A DNA stretch of 64,000 nt, taken from positions 1,612,001 through 1,676,000 of the forward strand of contig NZ_JAHLQN010000001.1 in the NCBI RefSeq assembly GCF_018919205.1, given 5' to 3'. Every line of letters begins with the position of its first letter. Within the stretch, counting starts at the first letter, position 1. Source of the stretch: Dysosmobacter acutus. Its GTDB lineage: Bacteria; Bacillota; Clostridia; Oscillospirales; Oscillospiraceae. Of the stretch, positions 4,056 through 24,735 are shown piece after piece. The position numbers and the translations under genes were made by a program. Under the pieces are notes generated by a model. That model ran no database searches. It worked only from the letters and a program-made list of their open reading frames with translations, and had not been told where the DNA came from.

Positions 4056-4699
4056 CTGGCTTCACCTCGTTCTTTGTGTTTCTTTTGTGTCCTCTGCTGC
4101 ACCAAAAACTCCGGCACTTCCTTGAAACCAACGCTATCCGTGTAGTAGGCGGTTTTCTTTCCACCTTGCGTCAGTACCACGATGTCGCTTACAGACATGG
4201 AACGCATCCGATGGGCAAAGGGGCGGTGGTCGCTGTTGTGCTTTGTCCAAAGATGCTCCAGCGAATTTTCCTTTGCGTACATACCGGCGTAAGAACGCTG
4301 ATAATCAGCGTTCTGGAGTTTTCCCTTTGCCTCTGCATAAGGCCGGAAACAGTAGTCTACATCAGCGATTGCAGGGATTTGGTAGATTTCATAGGTGCCG
4401 ATCTCGGCGCTGATTTTCGGCGTTCTGGGAACATAGGTATTGCCGCTGCGTTCCTGCATTTCTGCAAACTCGCAAATATGATAGGCAGAATTACCGATGC
4501 AGACATGGCAATCGTCAATGTACTTGCAAGGGAAAACCATCTTTTCACCGTCAAAGCGGGTAATGACGATGCTTTCCCCGTCCTTGATGGTAAAGAGCGT
4601 GTGGTATTCACTGTCGATGAAGCGGATCACGCGCTCTTCCTTGTTAGGGTTTGGAAAGGCGATAACGCCCATGATGTTTACCGGCTCACGGTCACTCAT
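4052..4699 (-). CDS. YodL-domain ICE protein
   Basis: The protein has 215 residues. Residues about 97-200 carry the YodL-like domain: TYEIYQIP, YCFRPYAEAKGKL, then SVSDIVVLTQGGKKTAYYTD and FKEVPEFL. The first 90 residues form a separate domain (RFIDSEYHTLFTIKDG, YIDDCHVCIGN) that I do not recognise. YodL domains are common in mobile-element accessory proteins of Firmicutes, and no biochemical activity is known to me. The tail is very basic (Lys/Arg/Gln-rich). Both ends overlap neighbouring genes by four bases, which places it in the middle of a translationally coupled ICE operon running repA to the giant gene. Confidence 0.65.
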   Translation of the reverse strand: MSDREPVNIMGVIAFPNPNKEERVIRFIDSEYHTLFTIKDGESIVITRFDGEKMVFPCKYIDDCHVCIGNSAYHICEFAEMQERSGNTYVPRTPKISAEIGTYEIYQIPAIADVDYCFRPYAEAKGKLQNADYQRSYAGMYAKENSLEHLWTKHNSDHRPFAHRMRSMSVSDIVVLTQGGKKTAYYTDSVGFKEVPEFLVQQRTQKKHKERGEAR

Positions 4700-9416: not shown

Positions 9417-10802
9417 GTGGAAGAAAACAGAACGGAAGCACTGGGCAGCGCACCGGTTGGGAAGCTGCTGTTCCAGATGGCGACACCGGCGGTTGCGGCG
9501 CAGATCATCAATCTGCTGTATAACCTGGTGGACCGGATGTATATCGGCCATATCCATCCCATTGAGACGGTGGGAAAGCTGGCGCTGACCGGCGTTGGCG
9601 TCTGCCTGCCGATCATCATGGTGATTTCGGCCTTTGCGGCACTGGTCAGCATGGGCGGCGCCTCCCGGGCCTCCATCTACCTTGGAAAGCGGGAAAACGA
9701 TACGGCGGAGCGGATCATGGGGAATTGCTTTACGCTGTTGGTTTTGATCGCCATTGCTCTGACACTGATTGTGCAGGTGTTTGCAAAAGACCTGCTGCTG
9801 GCCTTCGGCGCCAGCCCCAACACCATAGAGTATGCCCTGTCCTATATGAAAATTTACAGCCTGGGCACGCTGTTTGTCCAGCTGACCCTTGGTATGAACG
9901 CATTTATCACCGCCCAGGGCTTCTCCAAGACCAGCATGCTGACCATACTCATCGGCGCGGTCTGCAACATCATTTTGGACCCTATCTTCATTTTTGGACT
10001 GAAGCTTGGCGTGGCCGGCGCCGCACTGGCCACCATCATTTCCCAGGCGATCTCCATGACCTGGATTTTAAGATTCCTCACCGGCAGAAAGTCCACAATC
10101 CGTCTGCGCCCGGGAAAGCTGAAGCTCTCCGGAAAGATCATTCTGCCCTGCGTGGCGCTGGGGCTTGCGCCCTTTATCATGCAGTCCACCGAGAGCCTGA
10201 TCGCTGTGTGCTTCAACTCCTCGCTGCTCAAATACGGCGGCGATCTGGCCGTGGGCGCCATGACCATCCTCACCAGCGTGATGCAGTTTTCCATGCTGCC
10301 CCTTCAGGGGCTGACCCAGGGCGCCCAGCCCATCATAAGCTATAATTACGGCGCGAAAAATGCCGGCAGGGTCCGCGGGACCTTCCGGCTGCTGCTGATC
10401 TGCTGCCTTGTGTACTCCACGGCCCTGTGGGGCGCGGTGCAGCTGTTCCCACAGGGGTTTATCGAAATTTTCAACAATGAACCGGAACTGGTGGCATTTA
10501 CCGTCCATGCGCTGCGGATCTATATGGCGGTTTCCTTTGTGTTCGGCGCACAGCTGGCCTGCCAGCAGACCTTCATTGCCCTGGGAAATGCCAAAAGTTC
10601 GTTGTTCCTTGCGCTGCTGCGCAAAATCATCCTGCTGATCCCGCTGATTTACCTGCTGCCCGCGCTGATGGCCGACAAGACCACGGCGGTATTCCTGGCG
10701 GAGCCGGTGGCTGATTTCCTGGCGGTGTCCACCACAGTCACCCTCTTTACCATCCAGTTTAAAAAGGCCATGCACCGTCTGGATGCGCCGCTCCAAGAAT
10801 AA
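9417..10802 (+). CDS. MATE-family multidrug/Na+ exporter
   Basis: The 461-residue membrane protein has about 12 hydrophobic segments and typical MATE features. LLFQMATPAVAAQIINLLYN and YNLVDRMYIGHI form the first helices, and a second homologous half begins near residue 245 (FIMQSTESLIAVCFNSSLL). MATE proteins export cationic drugs or metabolites using a Na+ or H+ gradient. The start is GTG at 9417, because AAGGAG at 9403-9408 lies eight bases upstream. A GTG at 9408 would overlap that site. It stands alone between the conjugative element and a strong terminator, with no MarR gene beside it. The substrate cannot be read from sequence. Confidence 0.9.
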   Translation: MEENRTEALGSAPVGKLLFQMATPAVAAQIINLLYNLVDRMYIGHIHPIETVGKLALTGVGVCLPIIMVISAFAALVSMGGASRASIYLGKRENDTAERIMGNCFTLLVLIAIALTLIVQVFAKDLLLAFGASPNTIEYALSYMKIYSLGTLFVQLTLGMNAFITAQGFSKTSMLTILIGAVCNIILDPIFIFGLKLGVAGAALATIISQAISMTWILRFLTGRKSTIRLRPGKLKLSGKIILPCVALGLAPFIMQSTESLIAVCFNSSLLKYGGDLAVGAMTILTSVMQFSMLPLQGLTQGAQPIISYNYGAKNAGRVRGTFRLLLICCLVYSTALWGAVQLFPQGFIEIFNNEPELVAFTVHALRIYMAVSFVFGAQLACQQTFIALGNAKSSLFLALLRKIILLIPLIYLLPALMADKTTAVFLAEPVADFLAVSTTVTLFTIQFKKAMHRLDAPLQE

Positions 10803-10912
10803 GGGGCCGGTATTTCACGCTGTTTGGAACGCCCTTATGTGCTTCAAGACCGGGCGCTGAGAATGTGAGTCCGCCGGCTACGGAGCATCGGGTACTCTGA
10901 CTGCGCCGCAAT

Positions 10913-10949
10913 AAAAAGCCCCACCCGTTCCATCCGGGCGGGGCTTTTT
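10913..10949 (+). terminator. Rho-independent terminator after the MATE gene
   Basis: A 15-base stem, AAAAAGCCCCACCCG with CGGGCGGGGCTTTTT, has one A/C mismatch and a seven-base loop. It is followed by a T run, and A residues on the left make it usable in both directions. Confidence 0.85.
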
Positions 10950-11041
10950 GCAACTTGGGCAGCTAAAACGACCGCTTAGGGGCCAGGCACTTGCAAGCAG
11001 CGGGGAAATCGGATAGAGTGAAGCTGGAAGGGGGGAGGCCA

Positions 11042-11476
11042 TTGAAAATCACCATAGAGGAGCTGCCCGGCGCGGAGCTGGAGATTATTCTCCGCTGTCC
11101 CAGGGCCGATGAACAGATCCGGTCCCTGGCAAATCGGATTTCTGCCCTGGTAGAGGGACGGATTGCCGTCCGGGCAGAGGAGGAGACCAGGCTTTTGGAG
11201 CCGGAAGAGGTGCTCTACATCGAGGCGGTGGAGGGGACCGCGTTTGTCTACACGGAGAACGCGGTCTGGCCCACCCGGCTGACGCTGAGCGAGACGGAGG
11301 GGCTGTCGGAGGGATTCTTCCGCTGCTCCAAAAGCATGGTGGTCAATCTCCGGCGGATTGAGCGGCTGTGCAGCGGGCTCAACGGAAGGCTGATCGCCAC
11401 ATTGGCCAATGGGGAAAAAATCCTGATCTCCCGCCATTACGCGGCGCCGATCCGGTGGGCGCTTTTGAACGGATAA
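11042..11476 (+). CDS. LytTR-domain DNA-binding regulator
   Basis: This 144-residue regulator has no receiver domain. The C-terminal LytTR domain (about residues 45-140) shows VLYIEAVEGTAFVYT, FFRCSKSMVVNLRRIERL and NGEKILISRHYA. The start is a TTG at 11042 placed five bases after GGGGGAGG, giving the family-like beginning LKITIEELPG. Upstream in-frame ATG 10991 lacks a ribosome site. It is followed ten bases later by a DUF3021 membrane protein. This pair is widespread in Firmicutes, where the small LytTR protein usually controls its own operon and the membrane partner modulates it. The target genes are unknown. Confidence 0.85.
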   Translation: MKITIEELPGAELEIILRCPRADEQIRSLANRISALVEGRIAVRAEEETRLLEPEEVLYIEAVEGTAFVYTENAVWPTRLTLSETEGLSEGFFRCSKSMVVNLRRIERLCSGLNGRLIATLANGEKILISRHYAAPIRWALLNG

Positions 11477-11486
11477 GGAGGAGCAT

Positions 11487-11939
11487 ATGAAAGAGTTCAA
11501 AAAATTCTATGTCTGGGGCATGAATGCAAAGTTCTATATGGGGATATATTTTGCGGCGCTGGTATTTCTCTCCGGTTTGGTGACGGCGATCTCCGGCGGC
11601 GACTCGCTGAAGCTGATCCACTTGCTGCAAATGCTGCTGCTGGCCATGGTGGTGGCCCTGGCGCAGGTGCTGCTGCTGGAGGGGAAGCGGACCTACAATT
11701 CAAAGGAGATGGCTTGGCGATCCGGGCTTTGGGTGGCCGGCGCCGCCGGCGCCACGGTGATCTGCGCGCTGGCCTTTGGATGGATGGAGGGACTGGGCGG
11801 CTGGTGCCCCTACCTGCTGGGCCTGTTCATGACCTTCGGCTGCTGCGCCATGCTGATAGGGCTGAAGTTTGAGCGGGACGCGGACACCGTTCACCTGGAG
11901 CGGGAACTGGAGACGTACAAGAAAAGCGGCGGAAAATAG
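11487..11939 (+). CDS. DUF3021 membrane protein, partner of the LytTR regulator
   Basis: The 150-residue protein has four predicted membrane helices (about residues 15-37, 43-63, 74-96, 103-123) and a charged cytoplasmic tail (FERDADTVHLERELETYKK). This fits DUF3021 in length and layout. It starts with ATG after AAGGAG and lies ten bases downstream of the LytTR gene. The known pairing suggests it senses membrane state or anchors the regulator, although this is inference from context. A perfect terminator follows, so the operon has two genes. Confidence 0.82.
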   Translation: MKEFKKFYVWGMNAKFYMGIYFAALVFLSGLVTAISGGDSLKLIHLLQMLLLAMVVALAQVLLLEGKRTYNSKEMAWRSGLWVAGAAGATVICALAFGWMEGLGGWCPYLLGLFMTFGCCAMLIGLKFERDADTVHLERELETYKKSGGK

Positions 11940-11954
11940 AGTACGGCAAAGAAA

Positions 11955-11990
11955 AAGCATCCGGCCCGGAGTAATCCGGGCCGGATGCTT
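11955..11990 (+). terminator. Bidirectional terminator between DUF3021 and GNAT genes
   Basis: A perfect 15-bp stem, AAGCATCCGGCCCGG with its complement, has a six-base loop. It is preceded by A residues and followed by GATTCATTTTTT. It serves the convergent genes on both sides. Confidence 0.88.
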
Positions 11991-11993
11991 GAT

Positions 11994-12746
11994 TCATTTT
12001 TTCAGCAGTCTCTTTAAGTTGGAGACATCCAGCAGGAGATTGACGGTCTCAAATCTGCCTTTATAAAATACGGACCAGTTGTTGAAGACGCAGGGCAGCT
12101 CCTTGGCCTTTTGCAGCGAATCCACCGGGATAAAGGAGGCGGAGATGTCATTCGCCCCGCAATGCCGGCGCACCACCTCAATGGCTTGATGGATATAGGG
12201 GCACTGCAGATCGTAGTAAATGGTCAGCTCTTCCTCGTCAATCACCCCGGCTTTTGCAGCTGCTGTAAACTGCGGCGCTGTGCCGTCAAAGGAAAGCGCA
12301 AGCAGATCATAGCCATATCCGGTGGAATCCACCACCTCAAAGCCAAATTTTTTTGCAAAGGCCTGATCGGAGAGCCAGGCCTTCTGCTTGGTCGATCCAA
12401 GCATGCAGACGCCGGATTTCCCCTGCGCTTTTGCGTCTGCCAAGCAGTACTCCATCAGCGCCTTGCCATACCCGTTTCCCTTGAGGCCGCTTTCCACCCA
12501 CAGGCAGTACACATAGAGATAATTGCCGCCGGTGACGGGAACCCACGCCGATTCAAGAGGCGCATATTCGATGAAAACCGTGGCCTTTGCGGCCAATTTT
12601 CGAAAGACGTGCCCCTCCTTCAGCCTCTCTGAAAGCCAGGCGCGCTTTGCCTCCACGCCCGGATGAGGCTTTTTGGTGCGTATGATGCAGCACAGGTGCT
12701 CATTGGCCAGGGTTTCTGCCGTTACATTGACGAATTCAGCACACAT
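11994..12746 (-). CDS. GNAT acetyltransferase with C-terminal YoaP domain
   Basis: The protein has 250 residues. The N-terminal GNAT fold (to about residue 150) includes the acetyl-CoA binding signature VESGLKGNGYGKALMEYCL. The C-terminal part (about 165-250) contains EELTIYYDLQCPYIHQAIEV and VNLLLDVSNLKRLLKK, which matches the YoaP-type domain found fused to GNAT proteins. That domain resembles a thioredoxin-like fold with a CPY motif. The substrate is unknown; family members acetylate small amines or peptides. It is a single gene with its own terminator. Upstream (12747-13038) I see only AT-neutral spacer with no convincing gene. Confidence 0.85.
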   Translation of the reverse strand: MCAEFVNVTAETLANEHLCCIIRTKKPHPGVEAKRAWLSERLKEGHVFRKLAAKATVFIEYAPLESAWVPVTGGNYLYVYCLWVESGLKGNGYGKALMEYCLADAKAQGKSGVCMLGSTKQKAWLSDQAFAKKFGFEVVDSTGYGYDLLALSFDGTAPQFTAAAKAGVIDEEELTIYYDLQCPYIHQAIEVVRRHCGANDISASFIPVDSLQKAKELPCVFNNWSVFYKGRFETVNLLLDVSNLKRLLKK

Positions 12747-13038
12747 CGGCCGGTTTCCCCCTAAAAAGATTGGATGCTTTGAATGATGTCAGTATAGCAC
12801 AGAACATGGCCGGAGGCAATCGCCTTCCGGGCGTCGGAACCGACCTAAATTTCCACTGTCACTTTGCGCGGGCGGCAAACGCTATCTGTTTTCCCGTTCC
12901 AGGCGGAGGAATACGCCGCGGGCATAGAGGGCGATCAGAAGCGATGATGCGGTGTGTAAAATTTCCTGATCCCTGGAGACACGGTAGTGGATGCTTACGA
13001 CCACATCAATAAATCAGTCCTACTTTTTCCTCCGCATC

Positions 13039-14208
13039 TTATCCAAGTAACCGCAGGTCGTACCCTGATAGTTCACCTTTGTAATAGTAGTAACGCGGCA
13101 CACGCTTGGAAATGGCACATAATAACTCATATGAAATAGTACCGCACAACCTGGCATTGGTTTCGCACAGAATATGCTCGCCGAATATTTCAACCTCATC
13201 GCCGACTGCAATTTCCGGGAGGTCGGTCACGTCAATCATGCACATATCCATACAGATGCGCCCCACCTGGGAGGCCCTGCCACAAGATGTGAGCACCTGT
13301 AACTTGCCCGAGAGTGATCGGTGCAGTCCATCGGCATAGCCGATGGGGAGAACAGCGATTCGGCTTGGACGGGCAGCAAAAAACCCTCGACCGTAGCTTA
13401 CGGAAGTGCCGGCTGTTAATTCCTTGATTGTGGATACTGTGGTTTTGAGCGTCATGACCGGTTTAAGACCCATCTTTTTAGCAAGACTGTCTGTACCGTA
13501 GAGGATGATGCCGCAGCGCACCATGTCTTCCGCCCATTCGCTGTAGTTGGCGATGCCGCCGGAGTTGCAGCAGTGGCGAATGCGAAATTTGAAGCCGCCC
13601 CTTGACTCCACTGCCTCTATCATACGAACGAAACGGTCGTGCTGGATGTTGGTAAACGCGGTGTGCTCCGCTGCTGTTTCGTCGGAAACACAAAAGTGTG
13701 TGAATACACCCTCAACATCGAGCCCGGGCAGTTTAAGTACTTCAAGGATATCCCGCAGGCTTTTGTCAAAGTGTACGTCATCACACTGGAAGCCGAGGCG
13801 GCTCATGCCGGTGTCAAGTTTAATGTGCACCCGCATCTGCTTGCCTGAGGCAACAGCGGCATTGGAGAAAGCTCTGGCAATGTTGATGTCCTGCAGGGAC
13901 TGTGTCATGTCGAGACGCAAAATGCGTTCCGCCTGATCGGAAGGTGTATAGCCAAGCATGAGAATAGGCAGATGGACACCGCTGAAACGCAGTTCCTCGC
14001 ATTCATCGATATTGGAAACAGCAAGGAAGCTTGCGCCGATGGCCTCCAGATGCTTAGCCACCAGTACAGCGCCATGGCCATAAGCGTCAGCTTTTACGAC
14101 TCCAAGAAGTTTTGTGCCGGGAGCGACGGTGCGTCGGATGGCTTCAAAATTATAGGTGAGGTTATCAAGGTTTATTTCTGCCCATGTACGTTTAAGAGTA
14201 CTCTTCAT
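13039..14208 (-). CDS. alr: Alanine racemase
   Basis: The product is a 389-residue PLP enzyme that interconverts L- and D-alanine. Lys in LLGVVKADAYGHGA binds PLP, and the catalytic Tyr lies in SVSYGRGFFA. Other family signatures are HIKLDTGMSRLGF and CMDMCMID. The start chosen is ATG 14208 (MKSTLKRTWAEINLDNL), which matches other racemases. The in-frame ATG at 14292 adds 28 atypical residues. The best ribosome site (AGGAGGTG) is about 16-18 bases upstream, which is longer than usual. The gene is downstream of an opine/creatinase-like catabolic cluster on the same strand, so it may serve that pathway rather than the cell wall. A second alr elsewhere would support this. Confidence 0.93.
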   Translation of the reverse strand: MKSTLKRTWAEINLDNLTYNFEAIRRTVAPGTKLLGVVKADAYGHGAVLVAKHLEAIGASFLAVSNIDECEELRFSGVHLPILMLGYTPSDQAERILRLDMTQSLQDINIARAFSNAAVASGKQMRVHIKLDTGMSRLGFQCDDVHFDKSLRDILEVLKLPGLDVEGVFTHFCVSDETAAEHTAFTNIQHDRFVRMIEAVESRGGFKFRIRHCCNSGGIANYSEWAEDMVRCGIILYGTDSLAKKMGLKPVMTLKTTVSTIKELTAGTSVSYGRGFFAARPSRIAVLPIGYADGLHRSLSGKLQVLTSCGRASQVGRICMDMCMIDVTDLPEIAVGDEVEIFGEHILCETNARLCGTISYELLCAISKRVPRYYYYKGELSGYDLRLLG

Positions 14209-14631
14209 TTTGAAATTTTTTTGTTCACCTCCTGGTGTAAATCCAGCAGAGATATTAAGGATATATCCCGGCAAGAGCTTGAAAGTGTGCATATCAAGCT
14301 TGTTGAAACAACTGGCTGTTTGGCTTGGTTTGAGTCGATGGCGGGCCTGGATCGCTTACCGCTTCCTGGCCTTATCATTCCGCACAACAACTCTGTTCGC
14401 CGCCTTATATCAAATCAGGGATTTCTTTATTCTCACTATTTTTTGGCCATGTGGGCCATCCCTGACCCACGGTCATAGAGATGAGTTTTTTATTGCGGAG
14501 CAATAAAAAATCTGTGCCGCGTGCTAATTTCAACGTAATTCTCAACACGCGGCACAGATTAAGAGCCGTAGAGAGCCGTATTATTGCTTACCTTTGCTTG
14601 GAACAGGCCTATCCAATTTGTGTGGTAACGC
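14209..14631. other. Gene-free spacer upstream of alr
   Basis: In these 423 bases I found no credible ORF on either strand. The right part holds the double-hairpin terminator of the M24 gene (14489-14560) and a direct repeat AGAGCCGTAGAGAGCCGTA next to it. The left part upstream of alr is featureless apart from the ribosome site. Confidence 0.5.
14489..14560 (-). terminator. Double hairpin terminator after the first M24 gene
   Basis: On the minus strand a perfect 15-bp stem (14546-14560 with 14509-14523, 22-base loop) is followed by TTTTTTATTGC. That sequence itself folds with GCAATAAAAAA across three bases. It ends the transcript of the gene stopping at 14632. A similar ATTGC-NNN-GCAAT hairpin occurs at 48005-48031. 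Confidence 0.7.
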
Positions 14632-15807
14632 TTATTTCAGAGAAAAAAGCTTGCGCTCGATATCAGTCAACCGTTCAGGACCATTTTCGGTAATCAGTAT
14701 TGTTTCACTGAAGCCAAGTCCCTGCGCCATTGTCAGCACATGGAAGACCATACCGGGCTGGAAGGTCCAATCGGAGCCAGGCACCAGTTCGCGGATGAAC
14801 TCGCCCGCTGAAGGCCTGTAGGTAAGGCCAATGGAATAAGCCGTACGGTTCGTATAACTCTCCTTAGCACCGCTGCGGATCATCCCTTCGCGGAAGATAC
14901 GGTCCACCTCGCCGGCGTTGGCACCGACCTGCATTTTTTCAATACCGGCATCCTGTATGGAGTAAATAGTATCGGCGAGGCGGCGCTGGGCGTCAGTAGG
15001 CTTGCCGTTGATTACCGTACGCATGGTGCGGGCGACATACCAACTCACGCTGCCAGTCAGCTCAAAGTAGACAGGATCACCAGGCTGTACAACGCGGTCT
15101 GTGAACCGTCCATGCAGCTCGACCGTCCGTTCGCCGGAAATGATTACACCGTCGACCGGCGACTCGCTCCCGCCCTTGATCAGCGAGGCGTACGTGGCTG
15201 TTGCAAGTTCGCGCTCTGTAATGCCGTCCTGCACGGCGGCGATGGCTCCGCGCATTCCAGCACAGACCGCTGCGGCTGCACGGCGGATGACCGCAATCTC
15301 ATTAGGCGATTTGATGACGCGCAAAAGATCGACAATCTTGGGTTCTTCAACGAAAGTGACTTTTGGAAGCTGGCGCTTCAACTCATTTAAGCGCTCTGGC
15401 GTTAAAAACCAAGAGTGAAGGTCAACTCCGATCACACTTTCGGAAAGTCCCAGCTGCTCTACCGCACAGGCAGCGGCAGCGATCGAGGCAGGAACTGGAT
15501 TCTTATCGTCAGCATAGGCTGTGCGCTGAGACACCCAGGCGGTGTTTCGCATCGCCCCCTCCTCCATGTCACGGATAATCAGCACGGGCTCGCCTTCCGC
15601 GGGGATCAGCAGTGCATGGTAGGAAAAAATACCGGTAGTAAAGAAGCCGCTAACATAGCGGATGTTTTCCGGTTGGTGCAGCAACAGCGCAGGAAGGTTG
15701 TTGTTAGCCATCTCTGCCTGTACCTTTTCCAATCTTGCACGATACTCCTCAATGGGAAATTCATAGGTTTGTTTTAATTGAATTTTTGTCAATTCCTTCT
15801 GAAACAT
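14632..15807 (-). CDS. M24-family creatinase/ectoine-hydrolase-like protein (1)
   Basis: This 391-residue protein has the creatinase N-terminal domain (residues 1-160, LLLHQPENIRYVSGFFTTG) and a C-terminal pita-bread fold. The usual M24 metal ligands are not conserved. The first Asp position reads PVYFELTG, the second region reads YVARTMRT, and the ligand-His site reads TAYSIGLTYRPSAGEF. This matches creatinase/DoeA-type non-peptidase members rather than aminopeptidase P. His in VELHGRF and Glu in YFEL are spaced like the catalytic pair of creatinase. It probably hydrolyses a C-N bond in a small guanidino, amidine or N-substituted amino acid. A close paralogue is at 19504-20682. The start has AGGAGGAG upstream. 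Confidence 0.8.
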   Translation of the reverse strand: MFQKELTKIQLKQTYEFPIEEYRARLEKVQAEMANNNLPALLLHQPENIRYVSGFFTTGIFSYHALLIPAEGEPVLIIRDMEEGAMRNTAWVSQRTAYADDKNPVPASIAAAACAVEQLGLSESVIGVDLHSWFLTPERLNELKRQLPKVTFVEEPKIVDLLRVIKSPNEIAVIRRAAAAVCAGMRGAIAAVQDGITERELATATYASLIKGGSESPVDGVIISGERTVELHGRFTDRVVQPGDPVYFELTGSVSWYVARTMRTVINGKPTDAQRRLADTIYSIQDAGIEKMQVGANAGEVDRIFREGMIRSGAKESYTNRTAYSIGLTYRPSAGEFIRELVPGSDWTFQPGMVFHVLTMAQGLGFSETILITENGPERLTDIERKLFSLK

Positions 15808-15975
15808 TCGAAATCACTCCTCCTTTTAGGTAACAACGATTTCACAAGGGAAGGCGGCTTCCTGCTTGACCGCTTCTTGCAGAAAGCCTAAGCAGTTGTA
15901 GGTCCGTAGCCATTTTCTGGATGCCTGTGCGAAAGCCCCATGTGGGGATGATAGGCCATGCCACTGCTTTTTGCT

Positions 15976-17391
15976 TTACGCTTCGTTAGATTTCTCAGAG
16001 GCCTCATTTCCTTTTTTATTGGAGAGAAGGGACCCCACAACACAGATAATCAAACAAATACTGGAGCCAAGAATAACGCCGGCAATACCAGTTGCCTTGT
16101 TAAACGTGTAGTCCCAAATAGTTGAGACAAGGCAACCCGTCAGCATAGCGACATTTGCAACCTTTGCATTCATTTTCTTCCACAATACACCAAGCACCAG
16201 CGGGAAGAACACGCCTGCGCCGTAGGAGCTGCCGCCAACTCTGAACAGCTGGAATACATCGTCCCAGTACATGACAAGAAGGAGGATTACCACAGCAGAG
16301 CAGGGAATAATAATTCTGTTGAGCTTCAGCTTCCTGTCACTATCCATATTCGGAGCAAATCTGGGAATCACATCGTCTGTGAGAGTGGAGGAGATGATCA
16401 GCAGGAAAGAGTCGCCTGTCGTAAGCAGCAGGCCGAGAATTGCAGATAGCATCAGACCCTTCAGCACGGGCGGGAAATAAGCGGAAACGAGCATGGGAAC
16501 ATATTGAGAACCGTCTTCCAGTCCGGGGAAAATAAAAGGTATGCAATAAACGGACATGATGACGATGACGTAGGTCACGAATGCGATGATGCCCGCTATA
16601 GTAAGGCCTCTGGTGGCCGTCTTGGCATCTTTCGCGGCGAGCGCTCGCTGGGAATAGGCGGGATCGACAGAGACGGCAAGCACGTTTGCTAACACATAGC
16701 CCAGCATCGTGAGAGGCTCCATGCCCTTGAAAACATTCAAGCGATCCGGATCCGTATTTGCCAGGACAAATTCAACACCGCCCGCCTGATGGAAAGAAAT
16801 AAAGGGAATGATAATCGCCATACCGACAATGAGGATGACAGATTGAAGGGTATCTGTTGTAGTAACACCCCAGAGACCACTGAATACCGTGAAAAGAACA
16901 ATAACAAGCGCGCCGATCAAGGCCCCCGTAGTTCGATCCGTCAGTCCGAGAGCTTCGCAGGTAGTGCCAAAAGCGGTAAATTGTGCCGCGGTATAGCTGC
17001 AAGCCATCAAAAGAACGCACAAAGAGGAGATGGACCGGGTATTCTTGTTATAACGCATCTCCAGGAATTCAGGAATTGATGTAGCTCCACTCTTACGCAG
17101 AGGCTTGGAAAGAAGAATGAGGATGGGGAATCCCACGATGAAGTAGCATAAGGTCTGGGCATATCCCGACATACCATGTTTGTAAACATTGGCAAAGTTG
17201 CCGAAAATAACCCCTGCACCCATGCAGGTTGCAATGCTGGAACCAACAACAAGTTTCAGATTCAGGCTTTGTCCCGCGCTTGTAAAGTCTTTGGAATTTT
17301 TGACTTTCTTCCCACACATGATGCCAATGCCGATCATGATTACCATGTATAAAAAGATAACTGCAATATCCACAAATCCTATTGTACTCAT
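15976..17391 (-). CDS. Sodium:solute symporter (SSS family)
   Basis: This 471-residue protein has about 13 hydrophobic segments. It begins VDIAVIFLYMVIMIGIGIM and has KDFTSAGQSLNLKLVVGSS, both typical of the PutP/PanF-like SSS family. GVTTTDTLQSVILIVGMAII and a Lys/Glu-rich cytoplasmic tail are also present. It would import an organic solute with Na+. Its place between the two M24 genes and an opine-type dehydrogenase makes it the likely uptake system for the compound that the cluster degrades. The ribosome site GAGGGAG precedes ATG 17391. Substrate prediction by sequence alone is not possible. Confidence 0.9.
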   Translation of the reverse strand: MSTIGFVDIAVIFLYMVIMIGIGIMCGKKVKNSKDFTSAGQSLNLKLVVGSSIATCMGAGVIFGNFANVYKHGMSGYAQTLCYFIVGFPILILLSKPLRKSGATSIPEFLEMRYNKNTRSISSLCVLLMACSYTAAQFTAFGTTCEALGLTDRTTGALIGALVIVLFTVFSGLWGVTTTDTLQSVILIVGMAIIIPFISFHQAGGVEFVLANTDPDRLNVFKGMEPLTMLGYVLANVLAVSVDPAYSQRALAAKDAKTATRGLTIAGIIAFVTYVIVIMSVYCIPFIFPGLEDGSQYVPMLVSAYFPPVLKGLMLSAILGLLLTTGDSFLLIISSTLTDDVIPRFAPNMDSDRKLKLNRIIIPCSAVVILLLVMYWDDVFQLFRVGGSSYGAGVFFPLVLGVLWKKMNAKVANVAMLTGCLVSTIWDYTFNKATGIAGVILGSSICLIICVVGSLLSNKKGNEASEKSNEA

Positions 17392-17736
17392 AGCATTTTC
17401 TCCCTCTATTTATAGTATATAGTCGATTGTAAAACGCAAAAAATCCTGTAAATTTAACACTTCTTGGGAACGCTTAGTGCAGCAATTCCTCCGGCTGTTT
17501 TCTTGAAAGCACATATCGGCCTTGCAATAACCGTTTAAAAGCCGATGAAATTTTTCAGCTCAATGGGGGAGCCGCACTTAAAATTTCCATTTGATTTTTT
17601 GAAATCTCGAACTTTTACAATTGCCTACTCTATATGTCCTCCCACCTCCAAGCTCCATGATGAAATCAATATTTCGGTATCAGGTATTTCCAAATTCATC
17701 ATGGCGAAATTTGTCCTATAATTTTATAAGATTCAC
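17392..17736. other. Gene-free spacer between symporter and amidotransferase genes
   Basis: These 345 AT-rich bases contain no credible ORF. A TATA-rich stretch at 17408-17425 (tttatagtatatagtcgatt) just before the symporter probably carries its promoter on the minus strand. A 10-bp inverted repeat CCATGATGAA/TTCATCATGG with a loop of about 30 bases lies near 17655-17704, downstream of the amidotransferase gene. It lacks a T run, so its role is unclear. Confidence 0.4.
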
Positions 17737-19377
17737 TTAAGAGAAATTGCCCGCGCTCAATTGAGTAATCCATGTTCCCTGATTCTTAGCAATATTTACA
17801 GCCATGCTCAAAAAGGATATCATAAGTTCTTTTGCGCAGTTAAATGGTTTGGCTATTTCCGGATGGAACTGAGAGCCATACATCAGCCTCCCGGTGGCCC
17901 GAATCATTTCATTGCAAACAAACCCTTTGCTGTCTTTTGACGTCGCAAGAATTTCCCATCCTTCCGGGATAAGGGAAACCATCCATGAATGAAGCTCTGT
18001 ACCATAAAACGGAGTACTCATACCCTTCCAAATGGGATCTTCTTTCTGGATAGAGATGGGAGGAATGTCTTGTTCAATAATATCCTGCAATTCGTTGGTC
18101 CTGTATGAGCGCCCTGTATCCCTTGCAGCAGTGCTGCCGTAAGCCATTCCCATCATCTGTATCCCCGCACAGGACCCCCAGACAGGGATATTGGTGGTCC
18201 TGATCAACTCATACTCGCCGTTGAATTCAAAAAGGGGAAGCTGGCAAAATACATTGGGGGAACCGGAAAGAAAGATAGCCAAAGGCTTATGCTTTATCTG
18301 CTCAAACATTTTCAGTGAAAACATGTGTGCGGGAAGCTCTAAAACATCCAAGTCCCATGGGGGAGCAATATGTCCGTCTGTTCCCTTTATCATCTTGCCG
18401 AAGTCGGTTTTCACTATGCCCTTTTCCGGTACAAAGCTAAAAATATTGCTTATTACAAGGACATAGTTTCCGTGAGGAACTTCGGGAACAGCAGGCTGAG
18501 CCCTTGAATACAGCAAAATATCATAGATTTTGGGACTGCGGCCATGCCAGGCTCTAATGCAGAGCCTGACGTATCGAGCTGAAATGTCCTTTTCAAGGTC
18601 GATAACTGCTCTGAAGGAATTTGCGCCCCTCCGCTCCGTTTCAGCAATATCCGTCCAGGTTTTATCATCATTGCTGTATTGCCAGATATATTCCGCCAGC
18701 CTTCCGTCAAGATTTGAAGGGTTTGCCCAATCAGATCCGCTTGCCAGGCAGGCTCGCCAACCGGCTGCCCCACTTGTCATGAAAATCCGCGAAAGTAATT
18801 TAGGTTCGCCCAAATCAAAGCGAATCCAGTGACTGGATTGTCCGGCGGCTCCTTCCCAATAGGTTTCGCTCTTGTCATTCCGGTCTAAAATATTCTCTTT
18901 GCCGTATCCGAACGACGTCGTAATATCGGATATTGGCAGCCTTAAATATTCAAAGCTGTCTTTTTCTGCGGTATCAATAAAAAACCTGGCTGTAATTCCC
19001 CCGTATTCTGTACTCCAGTCGCTCTCCACTCCCATGGAATCGACAGCTTTCACTCTCCAGAACCACTGGGTTTTGTCCTTCAATTCTTTTTCCACTCTTG
19101 CCGCAGAGATATAGACATCCTCCGGGATTCCCTCTACTTGAAAAAAGTCCGTAGTACAAAACGACTCATCGGTATCCATTTGAAGTATATATTTGCGGGG
19201 TGGAATCCCCCCATCGCTGTTTCTCCAGGTGAGAAGCGGTCTTGCATCGGTGCAAACCTCGTCAAGACGCGGAGAGCTCTCTGGCATCGGAGCCGTCAGT
19301 GCCATACTTTCATTCCTGTCCTTCCCGGGAATAAAACATAATTCAGGCGGTGAAATTTCTTGATGAATCGGAACCAT
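17737..19377 (-). CDS. Fn3-like + F5/8C (discoidin) + class I glutamine-amidotransferase-like protein
   Basis: The 546-residue protein has no signal peptide, so it is predicted cytoplasmic. Three parts are visible. Residues about 35-130 form an Fn3/Ig-like module (PLLTWRNSDGG, KTQWFWRVKAVDSMG). Residues about 145-300 form an F5/8 type C-like module (HWIRFDLGEPKLLSRIFMTS, ISARYVRLCIRAW). Residues about 308-530 form a class I glutamine amidotransferase fold, with the nucleophile in VWGSCAGIQMMG and the His-Glu pair in YGSQFHPEI. Such amidotransferase folds include gamma-glutamyl hydrolases, which may fit a pathway releasing glutamate or an amine. The combination is unusual, because F5/8C modules normally bind carbohydrates outside cells. 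The start has AGGAGG six bases upstream. Confidence 0.75.
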   Translation of the reverse strand: MVPIHQEISPPELCFIPGKDRNESMALTAPMPESSPRLDEVCTDARPLLTWRNSDGGIPPRKYILQMDTDESFCTTDFFQVEGIPEDVYISAARVEKELKDKTQWFWRVKAVDSMGVESDWSTEYGGITARFFIDTAEKDSFEYLRLPISDITTSFGYGKENILDRNDKSETYWEGAAGQSSHWIRFDLGEPKLLSRIFMTSGAAGWRACLASGSDWANPSNLDGRLAEYIWQYSNDDKTWTDIAETERRGANSFRAVIDLEKDISARYVRLCIRAWHGRSPKIYDILLYSRAQPAVPEVPHGNYVLVISNIFSFVPEKGIVKTDFGKMIKGTDGHIAPPWDLDVLELPAHMFSLKMFEQIKHKPLAIFLSGSPNVFCQLPLFEFNGEYELIRTTNIPVWGSCAGIQMMGMAYGSTAARDTGRSYRTNELQDIIEQDIPPISIQKEDPIWKGMSTPFYGTELHSWMVSLIPEGWEILATSKDSKGFVCNEMIRATGRLMYGSQFHPEIAKPFNCAKELMISFLSMAVNIAKNQGTWITQLSAGNFS

Positions 19378-19503
19378 TGTTTACCTCCTGATTGAATTTA
19401 TAAAATAGCGCAACGCCAATTTGAAACATTGCTCCGCGGCTGGCTGGGGAATAGCCGCCCCGTCATTGATAGCCGTTCCCCTTACCGAGCCGGTTAAGCC
19501 ATT

Positions 19504-20682
19504 TTACATATTTTCAAAAAGTACACGCTCCAGGGTGGTCAAGCGCTCGGGCCCATTGTCCGTTACAAGAACACTTTCGCTAAAGCCCATTCCGCCCGCC
19601 ATCATCAGCATATGGAAAATCATTCCGGATTCCAATTTCCAATCCTTCCCGGGGACAAATTCACGGATAAATTCACCGGCGGAAGGGCGATAGTTAAGAC
19701 CAATCGAGTAGCCGACACGGTTTGTATACGTCTCGCGCAGCCCAGCCTTCAGAATCGGTTCGCGGCAAGCGCTGTCAATTACGCTGGAAGGGGTTCCCGG
19801 CAGCATTAGCGAAATAGCCTTGTCCTGCGTGCGGAGGATTATCTCCGCGACACGCTTTTGCTCGTCGCTTGCCGGTCCCACAATGGCACTTCGCATCATT
19901 TTTGCGTCGTATTTGTGGCAGGAGGCAACCAGTTCAAAGTAGGCGATATCGCCGCGTTCAAGAACCCTATCACCATAGGCACCGTGCAATTGATTTGTTC
20001 TGCTGCCTGAGGTGATGATGCCGATGAGAGGGATTCCCGCGCCGGCATGGACTTCGGCGTTGAATACGGCAGCGGCTAATTCCTTTTCAACTGCTCCTTC
20101 TTTTACAGCGTTTAAACCTGCGCGCATGCCTGCTTCCACTTGACGGCAGGCCATACGCATATATTCGATTTCTCTTGGGGATTTAATAATACGCAGATGA
20201 TCAACAATGCGGGGCTCCGCAACCAAGGTTGCATTAGGCAGCAGCTCCTGCATTTTTTTCCAACGTTCAACTGTCAAAAACCAGGAATGTTCATCCACAC
20301 CAATTTTCCCGTTTTCAAGCCCCATTCCCTCGACTGCTCTGCGCGCCGCATCCAGCCAAACAGGCACAGGGTCGGCCGCATCTGAATAGACGGTAAAAGT
20401 CCTAACCCAAGATAGCGCCTCCGCGGCGGGGACCTCCATATCACGGACGATCAACACGGGGTCGCCTTCACTTGGGACAGCCAAAGCGTGGTATGAAAAA
20501 AATCCAGTTGAAGTGTAGAAGCCACTCAGATAGAGGATGTTTTCCGGCTGGTGCAGCAACAGCAACGGAAGACCGTGTTTTTTCATTTCTTCCTGTGCAC
20601 GCCGCAGACGCATTTTGTACTCTTCAAGGGGAAATTCCAAACCAGAGGTCAAGGGAGCGTCAGAAATAACAAAATTATCCAT
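19504..20682 (-). CDS. M24-family creatinase/ectoine-hydrolase-like protein (2)
   Basis: This 392-residue paralogue of the protein at 14632-15807 has the same order of motifs: LLLLHQPENILYLSGFYTST, NQLHGAYGDRV, IAYFELVAS, GYSIGLNYRPSAGEFIREF and GFSESVLVTDNGPERLT. The canonical metal ligands of M24 peptidases are again replaced, so a metal-free hydrolase of the creatinase/DoeA type is more likely than a peptidase. The His and Glu in LHG...YFEL are shared by both copies. Two divergent copies in one cluster suggest two related substrates or a heteromer. Creatinase-type proteins form dimers. The ribosome site GGAAGGG precedes ATG 20682. Confidence 0.8.
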   Translation of the reverse strand: MDNFVISDAPLTSGLEFPLEEYKMRLRRAQEEMKKHGLPLLLLHQPENILYLSGFYTSTGFFSYHALAVPSEGDPVLIVRDMEVPAAEALSWVRTFTVYSDAADPVPVWLDAARRAVEGMGLENGKIGVDEHSWFLTVERWKKMQELLPNATLVAEPRIVDHLRIIKSPREIEYMRMACRQVEAGMRAGLNAVKEGAVEKELAAAVFNAEVHAGAGIPLIGIITSGSRTNQLHGAYGDRVLERGDIAYFELVASCHKYDAKMMRSAIVGPASDEQKRVAEIILRTQDKAISLMLPGTPSSVIDSACREPILKAGLRETYTNRVGYSIGLNYRPSAGEFIREFVPGKDWKLESGMIFHMLMMAGGMGFSESVLVTDNGPERLTTLERVLFENM

Positions 20683-20785
20683 TTTACAAGTCCCTTCCGT
20701 TTGAGTTTTATTGGTTCCTTATATAGATCTTCCGTATGGTGGCAAGCGGAAGAATATTAAGTACGGCGGCGCGTTCAAAAGAATA

Positions 20786-22033
20786 TTACGCTTTTGAAAC
20801 TCCCTTGTGGAGATAGGCGAGGAGTTCCTCTTTGCTCATGTTGTCAATACCAAGATAAGCGAGGCTGTAGCGGCTGGCCTCAAAGAAGTTCTTCCGGTGC
20901 ATCGCCCCCGCCAGAACAATCATTGCGTCGATGATCGGGGTCTGCACGCCGTACTGCACACCCAGGTCATGATAAATCTTGCAGCCGATGGGAACGTCCT
21001 CGGTCATGTAACGATGGTGAATGCTGTTGGGGCCGGTGTTTCCTTCGGAAGAGGGCTGGTCAAGCGGAAAAACGACATTGTCGTCGCCATTTTCATCAAG
21101 GCCCATGTACTCTTGTGTCAGCACGCTGCGGCGGGAAAAAAACATTTCCTTCTTATAGGTAGGCGTGCCGACACCGATGGCCTTTGCCAATTGAATCTCC
21201 TCGCCGTAGAACTGATATTGCACCTCACAAATAGACGGGCACAGGCCGTGAGAATACATCGAATAACTGGTTTTATCATATCCGCCGAAAATTACACCCC
21301 AGTTTTCCATTGTGGAAACGCCAAGGACAGTGGCGGGAACATGGATAACGGGGTTGACGTTGGCGAAGTCGACGTCTAAGATCGTGTTGCCTTTGGATGG
21401 GCCGTCGCCGTTGGTCACAGCGTCCATACACGGCAGATATTTGGAGGCTTCCAGAAAGTCGTCCGTGTCAGTCATCGGGAGAGCGGCGCCGCGCAGCGTA
21501 ATCGCGCGGTACTTTGCACTTACATGCGGAAACACACATTTTCCGATATTTTCGAGTCGGGTGCCATAAGGCGCGGAGGACCACCCACCGACAAGAATCT
21601 TCTTCGTGCAACCCATCTCCCGCATGAGTTTGCGCAGCAGCAGGCAGCCAAAGTTATCGGTAAACACATTGACAACCTGACCATCCTCCAAATAGGGGAT
21701 CATCGCGCGGAACATTGCCTCATGTCCCCAGGAGCCACAGGAAACAACAATATGCCCCGCCCCCTTGACCGCTTTTTCGATGTCTGTTGTCACGATGTCG
21801 ATAAACGCGCGCCCACTGCGCTCAAAGCAGTACTTGTTTCGCTGAATACCGTCAAAGAGAATGCCGGTCTTGTCAAGGTCCTTTAGGGACTTTTCAGCAA
21901 ATGGCGGCACGTCAAACAGCCGCACCTCCCGGCCTGCCAGTTTGATGTCCGCGGCGCAGCTTTTGCCGACTGCGCCTCCGCCAAGCACTGCAACTGGCAG
22001 GTCTTTTAAATACTCCATCTTGCTCATGACCAT
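20786..22033 (-). CDS. Opine-type (octopine/nopaline) NAD(P)-dependent dehydrogenase
   Basis: The product has 415 residues. The N-terminal Rossmann motif VAVLGGGAVGKSCAAD binds NAD(P). The C-terminal octopine-dehydrogenase domain contains NPVIHVPATVLGVS, whose Asn-Pro-x-x-His is the usual catalytic His setting, and VQYGVQTPIIDAMIVLAG. Opine dehydrogenases join or split an amino acid and an alpha-keto acid through a secondary amine. In a catabolic operon with uptake and hydrolase genes, the splitting direction is the natural reading. This is the first gene of the minus-strand cluster and faces the LysR gene. Two in-frame ATGs (22033, 22027) are possible starts; AAAGG lies four or ten bases upstream. 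Confidence 0.85.
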   Translation of the reverse strand: MVMSKMEYLKDLPVAVLGGGAVGKSCAADIKLAGREVRLFDVPPFAEKSLKDLDKTGILFDGIQRNKYCFERSGRAFIDIVTTDIEKAVKGAGHIVVSCGSWGHEAMFRAMIPYLEDGQVVNVFTDNFGCLLLRKLMREMGCTKKILVGGWSSAPYGTRLENIGKCVFPHVSAKYRAITLRGAALPMTDTDDFLEASKYLPCMDAVTNGDGPSKGNTILDVDFANVNPVIHVPATVLGVSTMENWGVIFGGYDKTSYSMYSHGLCPSICEVQYQFYGEEIQLAKAIGVGTPTYKKEMFFSRRSVLTQEYMGLDENGDDNVVFPLDQPSSEGNTGPNSIHHRYMTEDVPIGCKIYHDLGVQYGVQTPIIDAMIVLAGAMHRKNFFEASRYSLAYLGIDNMSKEELLAYLHKGVSKA

Positions 22034-22137
22034 ACTACCTTTCCTTAAATGTTTTGTAAAAAGTCACGAATTTTCTTCTTTTTACTTTACAGATTCATTT
22101 TAAACAGCTAAGATAAATTTGTAAAATAAATAATTTT

Positions 22138-22150
22138 GATTGTTACAATC
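22138..22150. promoter_or_regulatory. LysR-type palindromic operator
   Basis: GATTGTTACAATC is a perfect 6-1-6 palindrome with the T-N11-A form of LysR sites. It sits in the AT-rich spacer between the opine-dehydrogenase gene and the lysR gene. It is flanked on both sides by GTAAAATAAA copies (22120, 22151), as expected for recognition and activation half-sites. Confidence 0.5.
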
Positions 22151-22282
22151 GTAAAATAAAATCGATTGGAATTTTTTGGAACAAAAGCAAATGGCGCTTT
22201 GCATTCAGCAGAAAGCGCCATACATGGAATGGAGAATTTATAATCGGAAGACGTACCAATTGATGTTATTTGAGGAGCAAAA

Positions 22283-23173
22283 ATGGATACAAAAATTGTA
22301 AAAACTTTTTTATGCGTTGCTGAATTGGGTAATTTTACAAAAGCAGCAGAAAAATTGGGATACGTTCAATCTACGGTTACTGTTCAGGTACAGCAGTTGG
22401 AACAGGAATTGGGGTACCCTCTTTTTGACCGGATAGGGAAGAAAGTAGCGCTCACTTCCTTTGGAAAAGAATTTTTGCCATTTGCATATGAGATGCTGCA
22501 TATTATGCAAAAGGCAACTTCACTTGGAACTTCTCCCTCCCAAATTCGGGGAACTCTCCGCATTGGCGCACTGGAAACCCTTCTTGACAGCAACATGCCG
22601 CTTATTCTTTCTTCTTATAAGTGGCAATATCCGCTTGTTGATATTGAGCTTAAAATGGGCCGTACCATCGATTTATTGGAATTACTTAAACAAAATCAAC
22701 TGGACATGCTCTATGTGTGTGAAGACATCAATGCGGATCCGGAACTTTACTGCTGCTACAAAAGAAGGGAGCAGCTTATTTTTATTACAAGTCCTGAACA
22801 TGAATTGGCAAAACAGAAAAACGTGTCACTGCGTGAAATTTTTGAGCATACTCTGATTGTTACGGAGCAAAGCGGCATTGTGTATAAACGGCTGAAAAAT
22901 CTTGCAATTAGAGAAGGGATGAAGCTGCACCATTCTTTCATTGTGGATAGTTCAGTTGCGATTATCCGGATGGTGACTAAAAACTTAGGAATAGCATTCC
23001 TCCCTGAGTATTCTGTTATCAATCAAATACAAGATGGGCAACTTGCAAAAATTAATGTTGATATGCCCCCGCAAACGTATTACAGTCAGATTCTTTACCA
23101 TACAAGCAAATGGGTTGCGCCTTTTGCTGAGGGACTCGTCGATATCATCCGAACAAGCTTTCCAGAAAAATAG
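22283..23173 (+). CDS. LysR-family transcriptional regulator of the opine-like cluster
   Basis: The regulator has 296 residues. The N-terminal winged HTH reads KTFLCVAELGNFTKAAEKLG and STVTVQVQQLEQELGYPLFD. The effector domain follows from about residue 90. It is transcribed away from the opine-dehydrogenase gene, which is the classical layout for a LysR activator of the adjacent operon. The coinducer is presumably the substrate or an intermediate. The gene is clearly richer in A/T than neighbouring transporters, supporting acquisition of the region by transfer. AGGAG lies eight bases before the ATG. Confidence 0.93.
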   Translation: MDTKIVKTFLCVAELGNFTKAAEKLGYVQSTVTVQVQQLEQELGYPLFDRIGKKVALTSFGKEFLPFAYEMLHIMQKATSLGTSPSQIRGTLRIGALETLLDSNMPLILSSYKWQYPLVDIELKMGRTIDLLELLKQNQLDMLYVCEDINADPELYCCYKRREQLIFITSPEHELAKQKNVSLREIFEHTLIVTEQSGIVYKRLKNLAIREGMKLHHSFIVDSSVAIIRMVTKNLGIAFLPEYSVINQIQDGQLAKINVDMPPQTYYSQILYHTSKWVAPFAEGLVDIIRTSFPEK

Positions 23174-23273
23174 CCGATTGCGGTCATACTGTGAAGACGA
23201 TGGACACAAAGATGCAGATAAATGCGGCATGGTTTATGTCATAGAAAAGTCCGGCGGAGCTTTGTCAACAAAA

Positions 23274-23308
23274 ATCCCCCCTGCGCGGAAAAACCGCGCA
23301 AGGGGGAT
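23274..23308 (-). terminator. Terminator of the NSS transporter gene
   Basis: An imperfect 15-bp stem (ATCCCCC.TGCGCGG with CCGCGCA.GGGGGAT) has a five-base loop. On the minus strand it is followed by TTTTTG, nine bases past the transporter stop codon. Confidence 0.82.
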
Positions 23309-23316
23309 TCGTATGT

Positions 23317-24672
23317 TTACAGGCCAAGGATCAGGATGATGAGGATCAGGACAGGCAGGATGAACTGAAGATAGAACTTCAAAACCCGGCTGCGGGGCAT
23401 CCGCAGACCAGTGCCTGTGTTGGCCTCCTCCAGATACTTGTCGTAGCCCCAGCCCCATCTGCTGACGCAGAAGAGCAGATAGATCAGAGAGCCCAGGGGC
23501 AGCAGCAGGTTGCTGACCAGGAAGTCCTCGCTGTCCAGCACATCCTTGCCCAAGATGGGGCGGAAGTCGCTCAGTACATTATAGCCCAACAGGCAGGGCA
23601 GGCTGGCGATCAGGACGAAGACGCAGTTGATGACCACGGCTTTTTTCCGGCTCCAGCCGAAGTTGTCGATGCAGCTGGCCAGCAGGTTCTCAAACACCGC
23701 GATGACGGTGGAGAAGCTGGCAAAGGTCATGAACAGGAAAAACAGCGTGCCCCAGAGCCGGCCGCCGGCCATATTTACAAACACCCGGGGCAGCGTCATG
23801 AAGATCAGAGCCGGGCCCTGCGTGGTCTCCACATTGAAGGAGAAGCAGGCGGGGAAGATGATAAGGCCGGACATCAGCGCCACAAAGGTGTCCAGTCCGC
23901 AGATGCGGACGGCCTCGCCGGTGAGGGTGTGGTCCTTGGACATATAGCTGCCGAAAATCTCCATGGCGGCAATGCCCAGACTCAGGGTGAAGAAGGCCTG
24001 GTTCATGGCCGCGGTGATCACGTTGCCCAGCCCCACCTCGGAGGCCCGCTGGAAGTCGGGCAGCAGATAGAATTTTACGCCCTCCACAGCCCCTTCCAGG
24101 GTCAGGCTGTGAACCGCCAGCACTACAATCAGAAGCAGCAGCCCGGTCATCATGACCTTTGTGATGCGCTCCAGCCCCTTCTGGAGGCCGAAGCTGCACA
24201 CAAGGAAGCCGGCCAGCACCGTGAGCACCATCCACATAGCCATTTCGGCGGGGGCACCCAGCATGGCGTTGAACACACCGTCGATGGCCTCACCTTCCAG
24301 TCCGGTAAAGGCGCCGCCGGCAAATTTGAAGAAATAGCCCAGCATCCAGCCGGACACGGTGGTGTAGTACATCATCAGCAGATAGCAGCCGATCACGCAG
24401 AACCAGCCGTGGATATGCCACTTGCTGCCCGGCTTCTCCAGCGCCTTGTAGCCCAGTACCGCGCTTTTCCGGCTGGCCCGGCCCACCGCCAGTTCCATGG
24501 TCAGCACGGGCACGCCCATGATGATCAGAAACAGCAGGTAGAAGAGCACAAACACGCCGCCGCCGTTGGCGCCGGTCACGTAGGGGAATTTCCAGACGTT
24601 CCCGATTCCGATGGCGCACCCGGCGCTCACCAGCAAAAAGCCCAGGCGGGATTGGAAGTTTTCTCGTTTCAT
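23317..24672 (-). CDS. Sodium-dependent transporter, NSS (SNF) family
   Basis: The 451-residue protein has about 12 helices and shows the NSS signature near the N-terminus: GFLLVSAGCAIGIGNVWKFP with GANGGGVFVLFY. Bacterial members such as LeuT, MhsT and TnaT import amino acids with Na+. The start is ATG 24672, with AAGGAG nine bases upstream; ATG 24696 lacks a site. A good promoter lies at 24736-24764. It is a single-gene unit ended by a terminator. The gene is GC-rich like the host background, unlike the adjacent LysR island, so the island boundary lies between 23173 and 23270. Confidence 0.9.
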   Translation of the reverse strand: MKRENFQSRLGFLLVSAGCAIGIGNVWKFPYVTGANGGGVFVLFYLLFLIIMGVPVLTMELAVGRASRKSAVLGYKALEKPGSKWHIHGWFCVIGCYLLMMYYTTVSGWMLGYFFKFAGGAFTGLEGEAIDGVFNAMLGAPAEMAMWMVLTVLAGFLVCSFGLQKGLERITKVMMTGLLLLIVVLAVHSLTLEGAVEGVKFYLLPDFQRASEVGLGNVITAAMNQAFFTLSLGIAAMEIFGSYMSKDHTLTGEAVRICGLDTFVALMSGLIIFPACFSFNVETTQGPALIFMTLPRVFVNMAGGRLWGTLFFLFMTFASFSTVIAVFENLLASCIDNFGWSRKKAVVINCVFVLIASLPCLLGYNVLSDFRPILGKDVLDSEDFLVSNLLLPLGSLIYLLFCVSRWGWGYDKYLEEANTGTGLRMPRSRVLKFYLQFILPVLILIILILGL

Positions 24673-24735
24673 TCGATCTTTCTCCTTCACGTACACTTAC
24701 GCAGGCAAACACAACCCGCGGAAATCTAATACTGT

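Follow-up and report, generated by a model that had tools for sequence, protein, structure and literature searches.

We identified, in a 64,000-nucleotide stretch of the Dysosmobacter acutus genome (contig NZ_JAHLQN010000001.1, positions 1,612,001 to 1,676,000; hereafter the window), five consecutive genes that we read as a LysR-controlled catabolic operon, probably acquired by horizontal transfer and handling an N-substituted amino acid. We assign this reading a probability of about one half. The genes encode, in order on the minus strand, an opine dehydrogenase (ODH), a hydrolase of the M24 family (M24B), a protein with a glutamine amidotransferase (GATase) domain (GAT), a sodium:solute symporter (SSS) and a second M24 hydrolase (M24A), and a LysR-type regulator gene diverges from them (Table 1). 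The original prediction, made from the sequence alone, had proposed a catabolic island of seven open reading frames, these six and an alanine racemase (Alr); all seven were present and matched the families named, above the Pfam cut-offs. The island's A/T-richness was evident as well. GC content was 0.44-0.52 in 2-kb segments wholly inside 13001-23000 and 0.55-0.63 in most segments outside the island, those over 3001-7000 being likewise low (0.51-0.53). GC at third codon positions (GC3) ranged from 0.38 (LysR) to 0.65 (ODH) in the seven island genes and from 0.72 to 0.84 in eight of nine measured neighbours, the ninth, a GNAT/YoaP gene (11994-12746), having 0.66.

The gaps between the five genes measure 103, 126, 345 and 168 bp, a purine-rich ribosome-binding-like stretch precedes each gene, and a terminator-type hairpin lies 3′ of M24A; we infer a single transcript. 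The hairpin is missing from our consensus terminator scan because its loop exceeds the length that the scan allows; consensus scanning returned 16 terminator-like sites where 11.8 were expected, and 13 promoter-like sites where 13.5 were expected. Five inverted repeats were found in the LysR-ODH gap, compared with a shuffle mean of 1.8 (P 0.07), which is not clearly above chance. No Rfam family matched within 8000-30000. Alr, originally counted as a pathway member, is a genuine alanine racemase by its score (348.8 bits vs the TIGR00492 cut-off of 168), but we left it out of the operon and set it aside as a pathway enzyme because it lies beyond the hairpin, its start is probably at 14208 rather than 14292, judging by the AGGAGG upstream of the 14208 ATG, and the host genome (3.16 Mb, two contigs) has four Ala_racemase_C genes, this one included. 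Counting against its exclusion, an alr gene lies about 5.8 kb from an M24 gene in two near-identical Mesorhizobium loci.

Table 1. Features of the candidate operon and its borders (window coordinates).
Feature	Position	Strand	Basis
ODH, octopine/opine dehydrogenase family, first gene of likely operon	20786..22033	-	
M24B, creatinase/DoeA-type hydrolase without most usual metal ligands	19504..20682	-	PF00557 + PF01321
GAT, F5/8 type C + class-I glutamine amidotransferase (GATase/C26), possible Ig-like region	17737..19377	-	Pfam
SSS, sodium:solute symporter	15976..17391	-	PF00474, 1.3e-40
M24A, second creatinase/DoeA-type hydrolase	14632..15807	-	Peptidase_M24 + Creatinase_N
Rho-independent terminator-type hairpin, likely operon end	14504..14560	-	15-bp perfect stem, folded energy -31.4 kcal/mol, then T run
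Alr, alanine racemase, probably separate unit	13039..14208	-	Ala_racemase_N/C, TIGR00492
LysR-type regulator, divergent	22283..23173	+	HTH_1 + LysR_substrate (PF00126, PF03466)
CAATCG-N11-CGATTG inverted repeat, possible LysR box	22146..22168	.	Repeat count not clearly above chance

That the dehydrogenase is of the opine type was upheld by both sequence and predicted fold. ODH scored 103 bits with Octopine_DH (Pfam cut-off 30), and its predicted structure has an N-terminal Rossmann domain and the overall opine-dehydrogenase fold. H231 and D346, which we take to be the catalytic dyad, align with N-(1-D-carboxylethyl)-L-norvaline dehydrogenase (CENDH) and were invariant in 40/40 sequences (the window ODH and 39 of its 48 listed orthologues). 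The top of the fold matches held opine dehydrogenases, ketopantoate reductases and further dehydrogenases of the 6-phosphogluconate type and no other family, and the fold is compatible with each of them. A CENDH-like Octopine_DH gene, the second ODH of its genome, was seen at L121 (G000:C1, 6857-9076), beside an ornithine cyclodeaminase/mu-crystallin gene and, by eye, downstream of apparent arginine biosynthesis genes.

The two M24 proteins, 53% identical to each other, are indeed of the creatinase/ectoine-hydrolase kind: the nearest solved relative of both was the ectoine hydrolase DoeA (M24B vs 6twj, E 4e-34), with creatinase lower. In an alignment where the ordinary M24 contrast was a single protein of the same genome (L130), both carried Glu for the first Asp, Arg or Lys for the second Asp and Ser for the His, at positions that we presume to be the metal ligands. 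Six aligned plasmid relatives also had Glu at the first position and had lost the other two ligands, and the M24 protein of Flintibacter muris (L067) had lost all three ligand residues. Loss of the usual M24 metal ligands is a trait of the ectoine hydrolase DoeA/EutD family, and M24A and M24B, two of nine M24 genes in the host genome, may work like members of that family. We rejected their classification as ectoine hydrolases proper, because they score far below the curated TIGR02993 and NF038259 cut-offs (160/149 bits vs 613 and 217/209 vs 575). These scores also count against an alternative in which the pathway is of the ectoine or creatine type, with the main step carried out by the M24 pair and ODH carried along as a passenger. 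Such a pathway would fit the kinship to DoeA, as well as the surroundings of the closest outside M24, found among plasmid neighbourhoods H14-H28 (the best 15 of 1,182 records): this protein, 63% identical to M24B, is encoded on a Sinorhizobium americanum plasmid that also carries two further M24 genes and genes for an M20 aminoacylase and an amino-acid ABC transporter. The region of an M24 relative in R. jaguaris has ehuB. However, the pairing of ODH with this kind of M24 recurs in Flintibacter, and a scan of nine proteins from the island and its borders (11994-24696) gave no DoeB-like deacetylase, no search for one having been made elsewhere in the genome. We regard this alternative as quite improbable.

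GAT had been described as an amidotransferase-fold protein. The GATase domain was confirmed (PF00117, 6.1e-14, 52.6 bits vs 22.8; PF07722, 1e-6, 29.1 bits vs 20.5), but the protein is multidomain, with an F5/8-type domain ahead of the GATase (PF00754, 5.9e-16) and a possible Ig-like region (PF25788, under the Pfam cut-off). The motifs GSCAG and FHPE, whose Cys and His-x-Glu we assume to be catalytic, were read by eye in the translation and aligned with the motifs of the Flintibacter GATase. Partial matches to GAT occurred in 49/199 other genomes of the family, nearly all to the GATase part, and three plasmid records matched in the GATase part only. SSS scored below the equivalog cut-offs of PutP (TIGR02121, 141 bits vs 515.5) and PanF.

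In the pathway that we propose for the operon, SSS would import an N-substituted amino acid that also bears an amide or amidine bond, and the two DoeA-like hydrolases together with the GATase-type hydrolase would open the amide or amidine C-N bonds. ODH would then use NAD(P)+ to oxidise the secondary amine so formed, and hydrolysis of the imine product would release an amino acid together with a 2-oxo acid, each of which could serve as a source of carbon and nitrogen.

A scan of genome contigs yielded 56 ODH loci (43-91% identical), with less than 2 kb beyond the ODH in six of them (L082, L084, L097, L100, L101 and L105). Most belonged to Oscillospiraceae, Lachnospiraceae or Clostridia metagenome-assembled genomes (MAGs); two Synergistales, Acidaminobacter and a Hermodarchaeum MAG were also represented. 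Lack of conservation of the gene set in other genomes had been named beforehand as evidence against the pathway. The same five families were in fact present at one of the 56 loci, that of Flintibacter muris, where a LysR gene diverges from ODH, GATase, M24, SSS and MmgE/PrpD genes in that order, so the association of ODH with GATase, M24 and SSS recurs in part, in a second genus. The two ODH proteins are 86-87% identical and the GATase, M24 and SSS proteins just 22-29%, and therefore the two loci do not stem from recent common descent of one block. The host genome has nine M24 genes; at such densities M24, GATase and SSS would be unlikely to meet by chance near any of 56 ODH genes, with odds below 1 in 1000 by a post hoc estimate rather than a test.

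M24 and GATase genes also occur together in Alphaproteobacteria. A class-I GATase or C26 gene lay within 1.2 kb of the M24 gene in 5/15 plasmid neighbourhoods (H15, H19, H25, H27 and H28; hosts Roseomonas, Neorhizobium, Rhizobium SSA_523, R. binae and Phyllobacterium), or 4/12 once pairs that are near-duplicates by gene table (H16/H17, H23/H26, H27/H28) were merged. In two rhizobial plasmids the C26 gene was about 1 kb from M24, and 12 of the 13 neighbourhoods having a gene table included a transporter gene. The GATase model used (GATn) was trained on four sequences and matches L067, L138 and L147 by construction, which does not apply to L188, L190 and L191; a model from the window GAT alone found L067 only. 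Among the ODH loci, taken as a rough background for the pair, GATase matches were confined to L067 and the far end of L116. At L188 (5408-9128, Rhizobium SSA_523) the M24 gene begins at the GATase stop and is adjoined by LamB/YcsF and carboxyltransferase genes, presumably parts of 5-oxoprolinase, hinting at pyroglutamate chemistry.

These recurrences have to be weighed against the explanation that the island came together by chance, as a mosaic with no common pathway in a stretch that is A/T-rich and prone to transfer. The exact gene set was not seen elsewhere, relatives of M24B were absent from 397 other genomes of the phylum at E<=1e-50 and at E<=1e-35 occurred in 0/199 other family and 3/390 other class genomes (best 37%), and full-length GAT occurred in 0/199 and 0/390 of the latter two samples, the family, class and phylum samples overlapping. 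Against a mosaic stand the same-strand order closing in one terminator-type hairpin, the ribosome-binding-like stretch ahead of every gene and the Flintibacter recurrence, and we find this explanation quite improbable. Close ODH homologues (E <= 1e-60) were found in only 3/86 genomes of the genus, its own included (the other two 81% and 48% identical), which together with the low GC and GC3 favours horizontal gain. An SNF-family sodium transporter gene (23317-24696) adjoins LysR and has matches in 28/31 genus genomes, own included. No empty site could be demonstrated: in nine fetched SNF regions the window's other neighbours were absent from beside SNF, except for one block of the window (50715-52072) in L181, and the second flank gene gave weak matches only.

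Several observations weigh against a catabolic operon of this make-up. At 55 of the 56 loci, six of the 56 being the short ones named above, neither a DoeA-like M24 nor a GATase gene was found adjoining ODH. In L102 the M24 proves to be an ordinary aminopeptidase P; the L105 member of its cluster and the partial M24 of L099 are 7-9.5 kb off ODH, and the GATase match in L116 is more than 6 kb away. Conversely, the 15 plasmid M24 neighbourhoods yielded no ODH, and no GATase was found beside any of three Clostridia M24 relatives fetched. Internal promoters are possible, given the 103-345 bp gaps, and the single-sequence structure model of GAT (pLDDT 30) was not used. The chief doubt concerns the direction of the ODH reaction. 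The enzyme could instead act reductively, condensing an amino acid and a 2-oxo acid into an opine, for biosynthesis or as an NADH sink, with the hydrolases recycling or processing the product. Opine dehydrogenases of known structure act mainly in this direction, and an orthologue 68% identical to the window ODH, in a genome of the family (L119, G197:C29:46000-65000, 10769-11998), is located between flippase and ATP-grasp genes, next to a DegT aminotransferase gene and, by eye, among glycosyltransferase and dTDP-rhamnose genes, a setting that suggests an opine-making role as the better fit there. The G197 cluster is not purely a polysaccharide one, because by eye it also has thiolase- and 3-hydroxyacyl-CoA-dehydrogenase-like genes. 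In the window and in Flintibacter, ODH follows a LysR gene and precedes hydrolase and symporter genes, as is typical of uptake and breakdown loci, and uptake families recur within 8 kb of ODH elsewhere (GltS at 6, TRAP-TAXI at 5, BCCT at 5 and NlpA/MetQ at 4 of 54 loci). A reductive role in the window is, in our judgment, unlikely. As a separate observation, the G197 surface-polysaccharide cluster might serve opine decoration of a glycan.

The catabolic operon may represent a wider arrangement, although we consider this idea doubtful: an ‘opine gateway’ of gut anaerobes, in which a conserved ODH hub would act on one core opine-like intermediate, and exchangeable regulators, transporters and front-end enzymes would feed different N-substituted amino acids into it. 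Candidate front-ends are M24 with GATase, an MmgE/PrpD epimerase, an Asp/Glu racemase with an aminotransferase, an FAD oxidase and a glycyl radical enzyme. Within 8 kb of ODH we counted MmgE/PrpD genes at 18 loci, class I/II aminotransferases at 9, Asp/Glu racemase family genes at 7, FAD/Fe-S oxidase subunits at 3 and glycyl radical enzymes at 2; this tally, like that of the uptake genes, covers 54/56 loci (in L084 and L117 a spurious overlapping open reading frame displaced ODH), and clusters were named from one Pfam-scanned representative each. The nearest PDB match of the one MmgE/PrpD representative searched was IDS-epimerase, an enzyme that acts on an opine-like imino-dicarboxylate; the MmgE/PrpD count and this match also speak for the catabolic reading of the operon. 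A LysR gene of the window's cluster was the next gene upstream at 31/53 testable ODH genes and divergent in 29, five ODH genes with less than 900 bp upstream being excluded and upstream room being unchecked for the minus-strand L003-L005. Over 31 rows (the window counts twice, as itself and L003, as does the genome of L097 and L004, and L095 enters with one of its two ODH genes) mean identity was 83.6% for ODH and 41.8% for LysR, with a rank correlation of 0.22; LysR averaged 43.5% in the 188 pairs with ODH above 85%, and MmgE averaged 61.3% over 105 pairs whose ODH averaged 83.5%. Since regulators may simply diverge faster, the LysR divergence indicates exchange only alongside the changing transporter families.

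Some individual ODH loci had further distinctive neighbours. In L098 (6776-17586) and L090 (6139-10748) the genes after ODH encode a glycyl radical enzyme with kinship to choline TMA-lyase and a radical-SAM activase; L098 also has a BCCT transporter and a molybdenum hydroxylase. At L066, L089 and L094, Fer2_4, Pyr_redox_2, BFD-type Fe-S and DAO subunits resemble multi-subunit opine or sarcosine oxidases. A more distant ODH group (about 43-55%; L108-L113, L118 and the Enterococcus raffinosus plasmid L122) was accompanied by aminotransferase genes and genes of the Asp/Glu racemase family (L122 does not show all of them) and in several cases by MetQ/NlpA-type ABC uptake genes.

The component families are known; their combination and the fixed-core pattern appear to be new. 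We found no description of the gene set in the literature, which is weak evidence as most subscription papers were outside the search; within the same limits, nothing was found that joins carboxymethyllysine and opine. PMC9501902 names Oscillibacter and Cloacibacillus evryensis as degraders of N6-carboxymethyl-lysine, and neither ‘opine’ nor ‘dehydrogenase’ occurs in its text. Dietary glycation products such as this one would be candidate inputs to the gateway. If the idea is true, gut Clostridia and Synergistales would share a common, unassigned dehydrogenase for secondary-amine amino acids, reached via exchangeable uptake modules. It would provide a gene handle on how opines and glycated or N-alkylated amino acids are broken down in the gut, and a ready screen, with one enzyme in many neighbourhoods, each indicating a substrate.

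Compared with known systems, the window proteins combine familiar and divergent traits. Like the window M24 proteins, DoeA (PDB 6twj/6twk) lacks both Asp and the His that ordinary M24 proteins have, with Glu at the first position; unlike the DoeA system, the window M24 proteins fall well below the curated cut-offs and the island is without a deacetylase partner. Class-I GATases and the gamma-glutamyl-GABA hydrolases (Peptidase C26, PuuD-like) share with GAT a GATase domain with apparent Cys and His-x-Glu motifs, whereas GAT is fused to an F5/8 type C domain and is 29% identical to its stand-alone Flintibacter relative. The window ODH is 24-26% identical to CENDH of Arthrobacter sp. 1C (PDB 1bg6), is 56 residues longer and has close relatives across Clostridia and Synergistales; its identity to octopine dehydrogenase, a glycolytic enzyme of invertebrates (PDB 3c7a/3c7d/3iqd), is 16-19%. 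Opine catabolism on the Agrobacterium Ti plasmid uses the opine oxidases OoxA/OoxB. The chemistry proposed for the window is alike, and FAD/Fe-S oxidase-type subunit genes lie near ODH in L066, L089 and L094, but the window itself has a soluble NAD(P)-type dehydrogenase, with no such oxidase subunit among the nine proteins scanned.

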